Assembly (NCBI GenBank): GCA_027315365.1 | Contig: DAHUYF010000041.1 | Coordinates: forward strand, 1 to 64,000 | Length of the DNA: 64,000 nucleotides | Origin: Rhodospirillales bacterium | GTDB taxonomy: Bacteria > Pseudomonadota > Alphaproteobacteria > ATCC43930 > CGMCC-115725 | Direction: 5' to 3' | In this document: piece after piece, positions 44,724 to 63,352 of the stretch | How positions within the stretch are numbered: the stretch's first letter is position 1 | Layout of the letters: each line of letters starts with the position of its first letter | The notes under the pieces: generated by a model | The model's input: the letters and a program-made list of their open reading frames with translations, nothing else | What the model was told of the DNA's origin: nothing | Database searches by the model: none | Made by a program: the position numbers and the translations under genes

Positions 44724-44760
44724 AGGGACCCGGCCGCTTGGGGGGCGGGGCCGGGTCCCT
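44724..44760 (-). terminator. Rho-independent terminator of the LuxR-type regulator gene
   Basis: A perfect 12-bp stem AGGGACCCGGCC (44724-44735) / GGCCGGGTCCCT (44749-44760) with a 13-base loop. On the minus strand it is followed by TTGTTTTTT. It lies 41 bases after the stop of the LuxR-type gene. Confidence 0.88.
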
Positions 44761-58859: not shown

Positions 58860-59573
58860 GTGCCGTTGCCGCCGCCCGCCCTCCGCCGATATGGCGACGC
58901 GGCGGCGGTTGTCAACAGCGGTGCGCGTCGCACCGACGCTCTCACGCGCCGGGCGGCGGCGCTCGTCCTGCTCGGGTTCGGACTGGCGCTGGCGATGCCC
59001 GCCGCCGCCGCGACGCGCGTCCTCGCCTTCGGCGACAGCCTGACCGCCGGGTTCGGGCTCGCGCCGGATCAGGCCTTTCCGGCGCGCGTGGCTGCGCTGC
59101 TCGCCAAGCAGGGGATCGCCGCCGAGATGGTCAATGCCGGCGTCTCCGGCGATACCACCGCCGACGGGCTCGCCCGGCTCGACTGGACGATGGCCGACCA
59201 TCCCGACGCGGTGCTGCTCGAGCTCGGCGCCAACGATGCGCTGCGCGGCATTGATCCCAAGCTCGCCTACGCCAATCTCGACCGCATCCTGGCGCGGCTC
59301 ACGGCGAGCGGCGCCAGGGTGCTGCTGATCGGCATGCTTGCGCCGCCGAATTGGGGACGCGACTATCAGCAGGCGTTCGACGCGATCTATCCCCGACTGG
59401 CCGAGAAGTACCATCTGCCGCTCTATCCCTTCATTCTCGACGGCGTCGCGTTGCAGCCGAACCTGCTGCAGGCGGACGGGCTGCATCCCAACGCCGCCGG
59501 CGCCGCGCTCATCGCCCGCAAGCTGACGCCCTATGTGGCGCGGCTGCTCCACGATGCCGGGAGGGCAGGATGA
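58860..59573 (+). CDS. tesA: Periplasmic GDSL esterase, lysophospholipase TesA type
   Basis: About 237 residues. The GDSL block is VLAFGDSLTAGFGLAPDQ; the other SGNH motifs are SGDTTADGL, LLELGANDALRG and DGLHPNAAG with the Asp-His. The signal peptide ends MPAAAA after a helix LVLLGFGLALA. GTG 58860 is the nearest in-frame start with the signal; the ATG at 58827 would overlap the divergent ATPase gene by a start codon. It hydrolyses thioesters, lysophospholipids or aryl esters in the periplasm. It overlaps the FIST gene (ATGA). Confidence 0.9.
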   Translation: MPLPPPALRRYGDAAAVVNSGARRTDALTRRAAALVLLGFGLALAMPAAAATRVLAFGDSLTAGFGLAPDQAFPARVAALLAKQGIAAEMVNAGVSGDTTADGLARLDWTMADHPDAVLLELGANDALRGIDPKLAYANLDRILARLTASGARVLLIGMLAPPNWGRDYQQAFDAIYPRLAEKYHLPLYPFILDGVALQPNLLQADGLHPNAAGAALIARKLTPYVARLLHDAGRAG

Positions 59574-60700
59574 GCGACCCGCGCGGCGCGCGCTTCCTCG
59601 CGGCGCATGCCCAGGGCGATGGCTGGGCCGCGGTGGCGAAGGCCTGCGGCGATCAGCTCGCGAGCCTGCCGGCGGGCGCCAATCTGGGTTTCCTCTACGC
59701 CACCGAGGCGCTTGCCGGCGATCTCGGCAGCATTCTCACCTTCCTGCGCGAGCGCACGCGCATCACCGATTGGGTCGGCAGCGTCGGCCTCGGCGTCTGC
59801 ACCACCGGCCGGGATTATTTCGGCGTGCCGGCGCTGTCGGTGATGGTGGCGGCGTTGCCGCCGGAAAGCTTCCGCCTGTTCGCGCCGTCGGAGGCCGATC
59901 CGGCACGGCTCGCCGCCGCGGGCGACCGCTGGCTCGCCCGCGTCCGGCCGATGCTCGGCATCGTCCATGGCGATCCCCGCGTCGCCGACATCGCCGCAGA
60001 GCTCGGCGCGCTGGCGCGCGAAGCGTCGCTGTTCCTGGTCGGCGGCCTCGCCGCCTCGGCCCAGGCGCCGGTGCAGGTGGCCGGGCGCGTCGTCGAGGGC
60101 GGACTCTCGGGCGTCCTGCTCGCGCCCGACATTCCGGTCATCACCGGGCTGACGCAGGGCTGCTCGCCGATCGGCCCGGTGCGCCGCGTCACCGAGGCGC
60201 GCGACAACATCCTGATGGCGCTCGACGGCCGGCCGGCCCTCGAAGCCTTCAAGGAGGATATCGGCGAATTGCTGTCGCGCGACCTGAAGCGCGTCGCCGG
60301 GCTGATCTTCGCCGGGTTCCCGGTGGCGGGCTCGGACACCGGCGACTATCTCGTGCGCAATCTCGTCGCCATCGACATGCCGCGGCAATGGCTCGCCGTG
60401 GCGCATCCGGTGGCGGTGGGCGATCCCGTGCTGTTCTGCCGCCGCGATCCCGCCAGCGCCGCCGGCGATCTCGCGCGCATGCTTGAGCAGATGAAGCGCC
60501 GCGCCGGCGCCGTGCCGCGCGCCGGGCTCTATTTCAGTTGCGTCGCGCGCGGCCCCAACCTCTTCGGCCAGCCCTGCCAGGAACTCGCCATGATCCGCGA
60601 CGTGCTCGGCGACTTCCCGCTCGCCGGGTTCTTCGGCAATGGCGAGATCGCCCATGACCGGCTCTACGGCTATACCGGGGTGCTCGCCCTTTTTCTCTGA
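59570..60700 (+). CDS. FIST domain protein
   Basis: 376 residues. FIST N-terminal domain (NLGFLYATEALAGDLGSILT, VGSVGLGVCTTG, VIT-type strand DIPVITGLTQGCSPIG) and FIST C-terminal domain (GLYFSCVARGPNLFG, LAGFFGNGEIAHDRLYGYTG). In this class the domain is a predicted small-ligand sensor, often linked to two-component or chemotaxis signalling, but here it is alone without an output domain. It is coupled to tesA by an ATGA overlap and ends 9 bases before thpR. Confidence 0.9.
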   Translation: MSDPRGARFLAAHAQGDGWAAVAKACGDQLASLPAGANLGFLYATEALAGDLGSILTFLRERTRITDWVGSVGLGVCTTGRDYFGVPALSVMVAALPPESFRLFAPSEADPARLAAAGDRWLARVRPMLGIVHGDPRVADIAAELGALAREASLFLVGGLAASAQAPVQVAGRVVEGGLSGVLLAPDIPVITGLTQGCSPIGPVRRVTEARDNILMALDGRPALEAFKEDIGELLSRDLKRVAGLIFAGFPVAGSDTGDYLVRNLVAIDMPRQWLAVAHPVAVGDPVLFCRRDPASAAGDLARMLEQMKRRAGAVPRAGLYFSCVARGPNLFGQPCQELAMIRDVLGDFPLAGFFGNGEIAHDRLYGYTGVLALFL

Positions 60701-60709
60701 CGCGATCCC

Positions 60710-61234
60710 ATGCTGCGCCTCTTCGTCGGCATCGCCCTTCCGCCCGAGCTGAAGCTGCGCCTGTCGCTGCTCTGTTCGGGCTTGCCTGGTGCGCGCTGGG
60801 TCGATCCCGGCAACTATCACCTGACGCTGCGCTTCATCGGCGAGGTCGATGAAGGGCGGGCGGCGGACATCGACGAGGCCCTGGCGAAGCTCGACGCGCC
60901 GCGCTTCGCGGTGGCGCTTGCCGGCATCGGCCATTTCGGCGACCGCATGCTCTGGGTCGGCGTCGACAAGAGCCCGCCGCTGGTCCATCTGCGCGACAAG
61001 GTCGAGAGCGCGCTGGTGCGCCTCGGACTCGCGCCGGAGACGCGGCGCTATGCACCGCATGTGACGCTGGCGCGGCTGCGCAATGTCGGTGAGGCGAAGC
61101 TCCAGGCCTTCATCGCCGAGCATGCGCTATTCCGCGCCGCGCCCTTTGCTGTGGCGCAGTTCAGCCTGGTCGCGAGCTATCTGACCAAGAGCGGCGCGAT
61201 CTACGAGGATCAGGCCGACTATCCGCTCTACTGA
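60710..61234 (+). CDS. thpR: RNA 2',3'-cyclic phosphodiesterase (2H family)
   Basis: 174 residues. The two HxTx motifs are NYHLTLRFIGEV and PHVTLARLRNVG, the defining residues of the 2H phosphoesterase family (LigT/ThpR). The start MLRLFVGIALPPELK is typical. It hydrolyses 2',3'-cyclic phosphates at RNA ends. It lies at the end of the tesA-FIST run and faces a small minus-strand gene with a strong terminator. Confidence 0.95.
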   Translation: MLRLFVGIALPPELKLRLSLLCSGLPGARWVDPGNYHLTLRFIGEVDEGRAADIDEALAKLDAPRFAVALAGIGHFGDRMLWVGVDKSPPLVHLRDKVESALVRLGLAPETRRYAPHVTLARLRNVGEAKLQAFIAEHALFRAAPFAVAQFSLVASYLTKSGAIYEDQADYPLY

Positions 61235-61256
61235 GGCGGCGAGCGGCAAAAAAAGA

Positions 61257-61298
61257 GGCCGCGGCTGGAGGGCGAGGGGGGGCCCGCCAGCCGCGGCC
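61257..61298 (-). terminator. Rho-independent terminator of the 48-residue gene
   Basis: GGCCGCGGCTGG (61257-61268) pairs with CCAGCCGCGGCC (61287-61298), a perfect 12-bp stem with an 18-base loop. On the minus strand it is followed by CTC and a run of seven Ts. It lies 33 bases past the stop of the small minus-strand gene, and its orientation supports that gene; it may also stop thpR transcripts. Confidence 0.88.
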
Positions 61299-61331
61299 GT
61301 CGCGCGCGCGAAACCAAACCGGCGAAAGGAC

Positions 61332-61478
61332 CTAGTCGAGCGGCAGACCGAACCCGACGGCCAGCAGGATGAATTGCATCATCAGGCCGGCGGCCGAGGC
61401 CAGCAGGATGATCGCGAGATCGTCCGCGTGGCCGACAAACGACCGACTATGCACGAGCCGTAGCACTATCTCCGACAT
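61332..61478 (-). CDS. Small single-pass membrane protein (48 residues)
   Basis: Begins MSEIVLRLVHSRSFVGHADD and continues with one long hydrophobic segment, LAIILLASAAGLMMQFILLA, ending VGFGLPLD. It is below the usual annotation size limit but has GAGGTG 11 bases before the ATG, a membrane helix and a strong downstream terminator. Not recognised; possibly a regulator of a membrane complex or stress protein. Opposite-strand frames here lack such support. Confidence 0.68.
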   Translation of the reverse strand: MSEIVLRLVHSRSFVGHADDLAIILLASAAGLMMQFILLAVGFGLPLD

Positions 61479-61636
61479 GGCCGCCAATGCACCTCTTCGC
61501 CTTCCGACCCGTTGTTCGGATGTAGCCGGTTTCGATGGGTCGATTGTGGCGCCTCTCCGTTAAATGAAAGTAAAATGAGGCTCTATGGTGGCTGACTTCT
61601 TCCTAAAATGCGTTCTTTCTGTCACCATTCCCGGCA

Positions 61637-61650
61637 TCTAAAATTTTAGA
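61637..61650. promoter_or_regulatory. 14-bp palindrome upstream of ABC importer genes
   Basis: TCTAAAATTTTAGA is a perfect palindrome. It is followed by an imperfect inverted repeat, GACAATATTTCGC (61649-61661) and GCGAATATTTGTC (61675-61687). The surrounding 295 bases (61479-61773) hold no supported gene and are unusually AT-rich for the window, fitting a regulated promoter for the downstream ABC genes. Confidence 0.5.
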
Positions 61651-61773
61651 CAATATTTCGCGATCCTGCCGTCGGCGAATATTTGTCGGCAAGCGAAGCG
61701 CTGCGCGCCCGCTTTGCATCGCGCCGGTGCCGCGCCAAAATGCCGCGACAGGATGGGCCGGGAGGTGCGTGCC

Positions 61774-62547
61774 GTGGATCTGATCGTCGAGGTGAAGCGG
61801 CACGCTTATGATCGGCTGACCGTGCTCGAGGACGTCTCTCTGACGGTGCGCGGCGGCGAGATCGTCGCGGTCATCGGCCCGTCGGGCTGTGGCAAGTCGA
61901 CGCTGCTCGGCATCGCCGGCGGCATCCTCGCGCCGAGCGCGGGCAGCGTGCGGATCGAGGGTGCGCCGCCCGCCGACTGCCTCAACCCGCTCACCTACGT
62001 CTTCCAGGATTTCGCGCTGCTGCCCTGGCGCAGCGTGGCCGACAACGTCGCCTTCCCGCTCGAGCACCACCGCCTCCCCCGCGGCGAGCGCGAACGGCGG
62101 GTGATGGACGCGCTGCGTCGCACCGGACTGGCCGACGTCGCCGGCGTCCTGCCGAAGCAACTCTCCGGCGGCATGCGCCAGCGCGTCGGCATCGCCCGCG
62201 CGCTGGTCGTGCGCCCGGCGGTGCTGCTGATGGACGAGCCGCTCTCGGCGCTCGATGCGCAGACCCGCGAGCTGCTGATCGAGGATTTTCTCGACCTGCT
62301 GCTGCGCGAGCAGGTCGCGGCGATCTACGTCACGCACAATTTCGCCGAGGCGCTGCGGCTCGCCGACCGGATCGTGGTGCTGTCGCGCCGTCCGGGGCGG
62401 ATCAAGGATGTGGTCGCGATCCCGCTGCCGCAGCGCGAGCGTGGCGCGGCCTCGGCGCAGGCGGAACTCGCCGAACTCGGGGCGCGGCTATGGTCGCTGA
62501 TCCGCGACGACGCCTCGATCGCCGAGCGGGAGGTCGCCGATGTCTGA
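61774..62547 (+). CDS. ABC transporter ATP-binding protein (NitT/TauT/SsuB type)
   Basis: 257 residues from GTG 61774, which has GGGAGG 8 bases upstream; an ATG 21 bases earlier is in frame. Walker A is IGPSGCGKST, Q-loop YVFQDFALLPWRSVADNVAF, signature LSGGMRQRVGIARALV, Walker B VLLMDEPLSALDA, switch His VTHNFAEAL. It is overlapped 8 bases by the permease start, so it is half of a sulfonate/nitrate/pyrimidine-precursor class importer. No binding-protein gene is next to it in this window. Confidence 0.95.
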   Translation: MDLIVEVKRHAYDRLTVLEDVSLTVRGGEIVAVIGPSGCGKSTLLGIAGGILAPSAGSVRIEGAPPADCLNPLTYVFQDFALLPWRSVADNVAFPLEHHRLPRGERERRVMDALRRTGLADVAGVLPKQLSGGMRQRVGIARALVVRPAVLLMDEPLSALDAQTRELLIEDFLDLLLREQVAAIYVTHNFAEALRLADRIVVLSRRPGRIKDVVAIPLPQRERGAASAQAELAELGARLWSLIRDDASIAEREVADV

Positions 62548-63352
62548 GGATGTCTCGGCCGCGATGTCGCCAGCGCGCGGCGTGGCGTTTCGCGGCGGCG
62601 GCTTCCTGCCGGCGCCGCGGCCGCTCTACTCCTGGCTCGCCTTTCCCGTGCTGCTGACGCTGTGGCAGGCGGCGCTTTCGTTCGGCTGGGTCTCGCCGGT
62701 GTTCCTGCCAGCGCCGACCGACATCGCGGTCGCGCTGTGGCGCCTCACGGTTTCGGGCGCGCTGTGGCAGAACCTGTCGGTCTCGCTGCTGCGCATCGGG
62801 TTCGGCTGGATCATCGGCAGCGCGCTGGGATTCGTCGCCGGTCTCGCCATGGGATTGTCGTCGCGGGGGCGCGCCGTCGGCATGCCGCTGGTCTCGGCGC
62901 TCTATCCGATCCCCAAGATCGCGCTGCTGCCGCTGCTCATCCTGTGGCTCGGCATCGGCGAGGCGCCCAAGATCGCCACCATCGCCGCCGGCGTGTTCTT
63001 TCCGACGGCGATCGCCGCCTTCAGCGGCGTCGACGCCGTGCCGCGCTCGCTCATCCGCATGGCGCAGAGCTTCGACCTGCCGATGGCCGCGATCCTGCGC
63101 AAGGTGGTGCTGCCGGCGGCGCTGCCCTCGATCCTCGCTGGCTGCCGCATCTCGGTGTCGACGGCGCTGCTGCTGGTGGTCTCGGCCGAGATGATCGGCG
63201 CCGAATTCGGCCTCGGCGCCTTCCTGCTGGCCGAGGGCAATCTCAGCCGCCCCGACGAACTGATGGCGGGCGTGGTCGTCGTCTCGCTGCTGGGATTGGG
63301 ATTCGGCGCCCTCATCGGCCTCGCCGAGAAGGCCTTGCTTACCTGGCGCTGA
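62540..63352 (+). CDS. ABC transporter permease (SsuC/TauC-like)
   Basis: 270 residues, six predicted helices. The core includes ALYPIPKIALLPLLILWLGI followed by GEAPKIATIAAGVFFPTAIA and the EAA-type loop around LPMAAILRKVVLPAALPSIL. The family imports taurine, alkanesulfonates, nitrate or pyrimidine precursors. It overlaps the ATPase by 8 bases. The next gene is convergent, so the periplasmic binding protein must lie elsewhere, unlike the first ABC system in this window. Confidence 0.95.
   Translation: MSEDVSAAMSPARGVAFRGGGFLPAPRPLYSWLAFPVLLTLWQAALSFGWVSPVFLPAPTDIAVALWRLTVSGALWQNLSVSLLRIGFGWIIGSALGFVAGLAMGLSSRGRAVGMPLVSALYPIPKIALLPLLILWLGIGEAPKIATIAAGVFFPTAIAAFSGVDAVPRSLIRMAQSFDLPMAAILRKVVLPAALPSILAGCRISVSTALLLVVSAEMIGAEFGLGAFLLAEGNLSRPDELMAGVVVVSLLGLGFGALIGLAEKALLTWR

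Follow-up and report, generated by a model that had tools for sequence, protein, structure and literature searches.

Organization of the locus

The window analysed here is a stretch of 64,000 nucleotides from a Rhodospirillales bacterium, whose genome (G000; 4.97 Mb, 215 contigs) belongs to genus g1 together with the three same-genus relatives to which it was compared (G001, G002 and G003). A short open reading frame (ORF) on the minus strand faces the thpR gene, and the following features were delineated around it:

60710–61234, plus strand: thpR (LigT-like phosphoesterase/2'-5' RNA ligase family), the convergent neighbour that accompanies the hairpin
61248–61298, minus strand: terminator-type hairpin of 12 perfect base pairs with CCCCUC in its loop, then TC and seven T (predicted fold, conserved in ten genomes)
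61301–61310, minus strand: CG repeat located 2 nt 5' of the stem, with eight columns invariant in 10/10 sequences
61332–61478, minus strand: ORF (ATG to TAG) for a predicted 48-amino-acid single-pass membrane protein (ORF scan, hydropathy, homologues and coding frame test)
61560–61578, minus strand: promoter-like motif TCATTTTACTTTCATTTAA, conserved in g1 at one place per genome
61638–61649, no strand assigned: 12-bp palindrome CTAAAATTTTAG, the sole exact copy in G000

The ORF runs from an ATG at 61478 to a TAG at 61332 and is translated in the window as the 48-amino-acid sequence MSEIVLRLVHSRSFVGHADDLAIILLASAAGLMMQFILLAVGFGLPLD. The original prediction of a 48-residue protein with one clear membrane helix is borne out by hydropathy: the membrane segment is predicted at residues 23–41, with a best 19-residue Kyte-Doolittle mean (KD19) of 2.41, and among the 99 ATG-initiated ORFs of 40–70 amino acids in the window no other reaches a KD19 of at least 2.3. 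Twenty mononucleotide-shuffled versions of the window, which contain on average 152 ATG ORFs of this size, gave none as hydrophobic. The three homologous proteins from G000, G001 and G002 (48, 47 and 47 residues) have KD19 values of 2.34–2.64 and one membrane segment each, which agrees with the definition of small single-pass membrane proteins by length (below about 50 residues) and by a single hydrophobic helix. The AlphaFold2 model of the 48-amino-acid protein, obtained with an alignment of three rows, consists of a single long helix spanning residues 3–44, with a mean pLDDT of 78.

An in-frame TTG is found three codons 5' of the ATG and a start there would yield 51 residues; in the alignment with the relatives, homology begins at the ATG and not at the TTG. 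A plausible ribosome site had also been proposed. AAGAGG is indeed present, but its spacing of 13 nt to the ATG is long and makes the site only moderate. By reading, the relatives have GGGAG 9 nt from the ATG (G001) and AAGGG close to the ATG (G002), and no clear site was seen by eye 5' of the start in G003. Of the features described for this gene, the ribosome site is the least convincing.

Downstream, exactly 33 nt separate the stop codon from the stem, as had been predicted. The 5' arm (61298–61287) and the 3' arm (61268–61257) pair perfectly over 12 bp, and the seven T (61254–61248) follow after an intervening TC. The fold of region 61335–61245 has a predicted energy of -47.1 kcal/mol (z -2.9), with 1/200 shuffles as good, and a script scan of the window returned only two hairpins with a perfect 10-bp stem and a T-run. 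A terminator scan of the window did not list the hairpin, probably owing to the limit of 8 nt that it sets on the loop. Another strong hairpin of terminator type, with a 12-bp stem, a C-rich loop CCGCCCCCCAAGC and a T-run, was noted on the minus strand at 44760–44724, by eye just past the end of a putative regulator gene; it is absent from the matches of the hairpin model described below (R1) in G000.

Upstream of the ORF, the motif TCATTTTACTTTCATTTAA is found, allowing up to three mismatches, at one place per genome in all four g1 genomes, always at this locus. Exact copies of CTAAAATTTTAG occur at one place each in G000, G001 and G002, also always here, and a second, degenerate copy lies 23 bp nearer the gene. 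In G003, the palindrome has one base changed at this locus and one exact copy elsewhere in the genome. The gene beyond the motifs is variable: an ABC transporter in G000 (Pfam) and G002 (by ORF reading), a YkcB-like gene in G003 and a 137-amino-acid ORF with no Pfam match in G001. As this gene differs among the four genomes while the motifs stay, the motifs seem to be part of the same unit as the ORF, for which they could serve as promoter and operator. A sigma-70-type promoter scan of positions 60000–63000 returned none, but promoters of this type are perhaps not what this organism uses.

On the other side of the locus, directly upstream of thpR, the window encodes a protein with FIST N and FIST C domains (Pfam; 59570–60697, plus strand). 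Reading of the ORF lists revealed a FIST-like ORF upstream of thpR in G001, G002 and G003 as well.

Homologues in genus g1 and conservation of the reading frame

A protein search of 61 genomes, comprising the genome of origin and its relatives, produced strong matches only in G000, G001 (E 1.7e-11, 53% identity) and G002 (E 1.3e-10, 54% identity). In both relatives the homologue occupies the same strand and the same place on the 3' side of thpR, to which it is convergent, and starts at the same codon. In G003, the start and the first 17 residues are in frame 3' of thpR, followed by a middle part made of conserved DNA that is out of frame, until a second shift restores the frame, leaving an ORF of 48 codons whose end is hydrophobic. 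The two one-base shifts of this copy (locus L010, 1503–1646), across which a 48-codon frame is still open, are either real or assembly errors. The original prediction had suggested looking for conserved copies next to thpR in relatives, and the place of the ORF is in fact kept in 3/3 of them, clearly in G001 and G002 and with a frame-shifted middle in G003; the frame is open at 47–48 codons in all four genomes of the genus.

A profile built from the three clear sequences was compared with the 43 genomes of the order and recovered G003 (E 2.1e-4) and otherwise two weak matches; none of the 39 remaining genomes yielded a convincing homologue. Similarly, 385 genomes sampled from the class contained no convincing homologue, the two weak matches beside the window itself having E-values of 0.002 and 0.008. 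Two of the weak matches were examined and rejected as chance: the one in G019 lies opposite the reading frame of another gene, presumably a DUF899 gene, and the one in G185 falls within a longer ORF but in a different frame. The remaining weak matches, including those in G029 and G124, were set aside on score only. The protein had no match in the phages and plasmids searched, and a search of viral contigs returned none.

No accepted match to the protein was obtained from Pfam, NCBIfam, PHROGs, PADLOC or the sequences of the PDB. Pfam TraL was hit below the cut-off (E 0.12). Residues 13–26 of the G001 homologue align with the last 14 of the 37 positions of DUF1232 (PF06803) with an E-value of 0.013 and 15.7 bits, for a gathering score of 23 bits; this concerns only one of the four homologues, the protein of the window having no match to it. 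Searched across six genomes, the DUF1232 model found nothing over the cut-off and met the ORF, below it, in G001 only. Among the titles listed in a literature search, none concerns this locus.

To what extent is the frame maintained as a protein? In the gene frame, the mean BLOSUM62 score per site is 2.85, a value reached by 0/1000 column shuffles, whereas the best of the other five frames scores 2.13, reached by 39/1000. The observed number of identical residues was attained in 18/10000 column shuffles. Over 46 aligned codons, dN/dS is 0.53–0.55 in the three pairs, and over the first 28 codons it ranges from 0.27 to 0.72. The frame score and a dN/dS of about 0.5, which come from three clear sequences only, point to selection acting on a protein. 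Summed over the three pairs, changes at first, second and third codon positions number 50, 24 and 58, which is what a membrane helix would give and is not strong evidence alone. Most of the invariant residues are in the N-terminal half, which carries the conserved motif LVHSRxFxGxADDLA, and not in the helix, where substitutions mostly exchange one hydrophobic residue for another.

An overlapping ORF of 64 amino acids is found on the opposite strand (61369–61563, plus strand), with counterparts of 65 amino acids in G002 and 69 in G001. It was considered as a candidate gene and discarded, its frame being the less conserved one reached by 39/1000 shuffles.

The same data could be read as a chance ORF within a conserved non-coding RNA, the conservation of residues being a by-product of conserved DNA. 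A dN/dS of about 0.5, the shifted middle of G003 and first codon positions that vary almost as much as the third would all suit such a reading, and three aligned ORFs free of stops are not rare (1067/10000 column shuffles). We nevertheless consider it quite improbable, since no frame other than that of the gene outscores every column shuffle, the frame is open in all four genomes, the exchanges in the helix are mostly hydrophobic, and the RNA fold predicted inside the ORF involves mostly pairs without changes on both sides.

With coding-type conservation and same-genus homologues beside thpR, the view that this is a real gene is thus likely to be correct. We propose, with fair confidence, that it is a genuine small membrane-protein gene restricted to one genus of an uncultured or little-known alphaproteobacterial family. 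Counting against a gene are the small number of genomes that carry the ORF (four, of which one has two frame shifts), a dN/dS of only about 0.5, the lack of convincing homologues in the rest of the order and in the class sample, the missing family match, the long spacing of the ribosome site, the negative sigma-70 scan and, for the hairpin, the one measure that was not raised (see below).

A hairpin 3' of thpR in three genera

The regions 3' of thpR were read in 27 of the 30 thpR loci fetched, L026, L030 and L048 being left out; in two of the 27, the reading covered just 120 bases. The same hairpin was found there in ten genomes: the four of g1, two of two in g7 (G009 and G018) and four of four in g9 (G011, G020, G024 and G028). 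In none of the six g7 and g9 genomes does the protein profile have a match. The terminator had been described as dedicated to the small gene; its presence 3' of thpR in genomes without the ORF contradicts this and indicates that the RNA element can occur independently of the protein. More generally, the phylogenetic range of a "dedicated terminator" should be set against that of the ORF before the terminator is taken as more than weak evidence for a gene.

In the alignment of the ten sequences, the invariant columns include CGCGCGCG, which precedes the stem, and four loop C; by reading, the loop contains CCCCUC in 10/10. With a structure derived from this same alignment, 99.4% of the cells of 16 pairs are paired and 7 pairs have changes on both sides; the pairing, the both-side changes and the covariation score of the hairpin were reached by 0/500 shuffles. 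One of the five measures, the number of further pair types, was not raised (13 for a shuffle mean of 14.2, with 489/500 shuffles as high). A consensus fold of the whole putative transcript was also attempted with four sequences; it comprises 58 pairs, 9 with both-side changes, in weak helices among which only the terminator stem is convincing.

The R1 model was built from the ten hairpin sequences, which score 66–88 bits by construction. When all 43 genomes of the order were searched with it, the best of the 33 others scored 28 bits, so that none comes near; ten of them gave weak matches (E 0.0018–0.05, 23–28 bits), and some of the ten hairpin genomes contain second weak places. Among 289 genomes of the class, four matches of 27–29 bits were obtained, 29 bits being the best beside the window. 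No match at the gathering score was found in Rfam for positions 60500–62500 of the window or for loci L002, L003, L010, L024 and L029. Loops containing CCCC are rare among terminator-like hairpins in the stretches sampled by script: 3/74 in G000 and 6/107 in G009, counts that include the thpR hairpin itself, and 0/26 in G011.

In g9, the motif TTTCAYNSTTGNTTAAGCGC starts about 170 nt before the end of the hairpin and is present once per genome in 4/4; it was searched in g1 and g7 and not found. The same-strand gene upstream of the hairpin is NicO in G011 and DUF934 in G020, as well as in G009 of g7. As the upstream gene differs within g9, the hairpin unit seems to go with thpR. The g9 unit would fit a small RNA, though it could also be the 3' end of the upstream mRNA.

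These observations can be accommodated by a dual-function RNA, that is to say a regulatory RNA at the root, whose CCCCUC loop would pair with G-rich, Shine-Dalgarno-like targets, and to which g1 adds the 48-amino-acid ORF. The hairpin without the ORF in g7 and g9, the invariant loop and CGCGCGCG on a covarying stem, the rarity of CCCC-bearing loops, the single TTTCAYNSTTGNTTAAGCGC of each g9 genome and the changing upstream gene all argue for it. Conversely, Rfam holds no match, there is a single hairpin, and where DUF934 lies upstream (G009 and G020) the hairpin could simply end that mRNA. We regard this reading as possible, though tentative.

Alternatively, the hairpin could be no more than a plain terminator: it would shield thpR from minus-strand transcription, its likeness among genera would come from descent and thermodynamic need, and the ORF would be an ordinary small gene or untranslated. 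The T-rich tract found 3' of the stem on the minus strand in 9/10 sequences, short in some, would suit this function, as would its overlap with the thpR stop in three g9 genomes (G011, G020 and G024). Yet a terminator needs no fixed sequence in its loop or in the bases before its stem, both of which are kept in 10/10, and in G018 the loop is kept though the T tract is poor. We regard this explanation, too, as possible, though tentative.

A thpR tree of 30 rows places the hairpin-bearing g7 and g9 genomes in one clade with g3, g5 and g8 (support 93/91). The rows of g1 fall into two pairs, which meet g10, the g3/g5/g7/g8/g9 clade and a g6/g11 clade at an unresolved fork; this tree is poorly resolved and midpoint-rooted. 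The simpler reading is that the hairpin predates the ORF; the ORF may also have been lost outside g1. With an older hairpin, a small regulatory RNA with a C-rich-loop terminator would stand 3' of thpR in three genera, and the ORF would have arisen between the promoter region and the hairpin in one genus, resulting in a young dual-function RNA. We consider this complete scenario unlikely. For g1, the putative transcript could thus have a regulatory role besides encoding the membrane protein, or it could simply be an mRNA whose terminator is conserved to an unusual degree.

Possible function and relation to known systems

For the small membrane-protein gene that we favour, we hypothesize a monocistronic transcript of about 300 nt that would start near the conserved AT-rich motif at 61578–61560, would perhaps be controlled by a regulator reading the palindrome pair upstream, and would end at the conserved hairpin. 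Its translation would produce a protein of 47–48 amino acids whose short N-terminal stretch is probably cytoplasmic, as basic residues precede the helix, with one membrane helix tolerant of hydrophobic exchange. The conserved N-terminal motif and the exchange-tolerant helix form a pattern that suits a membrane-anchored modulator, with the N-terminus as a possible binding site for a partner. In addition, the constant C-rich loop of the 3' hairpin may confer a function at the RNA level.

Such a protein resembles the bacterial single-pass small membrane proteins of less than 50 amino acids in length, in its single helix, in its monocistronic-looking unit and in a size that is missed by length cut-offs, and it differs from them in having no accepted family match. 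Type I toxins are generally small, with a single helix and a strong 3' hairpin, and the size, helix and hairpin of the candidate match this general look. We therefore also weighed a small hydrophobic toxin whose mRNA would be silenced by an antisense or adjacent RNA. Precedents exist in two reports: TimP is a toxic small protein targeting the membrane (PMC7667032), and ORFs of small RNAs are enriched in membrane segments, with many predicted type I toxins (PMC5521070). Like the TimP of the TimP/TimR pair (a toxin and its repressing small RNA), the candidate would be a small membrane protein overlooked by annotation; it differs in having no identified repressing RNA, the sequences being compared via family libraries only (PMC7667032). 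Against a toxin, in g1 the gene is single-copy with a fixed place beside thpR, the phages and plasmids searched have no matches, the sigma-70 scan of 60000–63000, which may not fit the host, found no promoter-like site for an antisense RNA, and the invariant residues fall mostly in the N-terminal half, which is unexpected for a toxin acting by its helix. We consider a type I toxin very improbable.

If the short transcript carries both the ORF and a conserved RNA element, it would be comparable with the dual-function small RNA VcdRP of Vibrio cholerae (PMC8672173). The RNA element expected of this class is present here, with covariation, a constant loop and occurrence also without the ORF. By contrast with VcdRP, hairpin and ORF differ in phylogenetic range, and both the transcript and its RNA function are putative. 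Among Alphaproteobacteria, the Rhizobiales small RNAs SmelA075 and SmelA099 are reported to have three and four hairpins with anti-Shine-Dalgarno loops CCUCCUCCC (PMC3927594). They share with the candidate a conserved C-rich loop on a variable stem; the candidate differs from this description (PMC3927594) in having one conserved hairpin, which is also a terminator and bears CCCCUC in its loop, instead of three or four CCUCCUCCC hairpins.

If our proposal is correct, the locus would define a new family of small membrane proteins together with an RNA hairpin family absent from Rfam, both from a little-studied alphaproteobacterial group. The different ranges of the RNA element and of the protein would provide a case in which one can test how a small gene is born or lost within an RNA unit, and, should the RNA part be older than the protein part, this could be dated on a tree.
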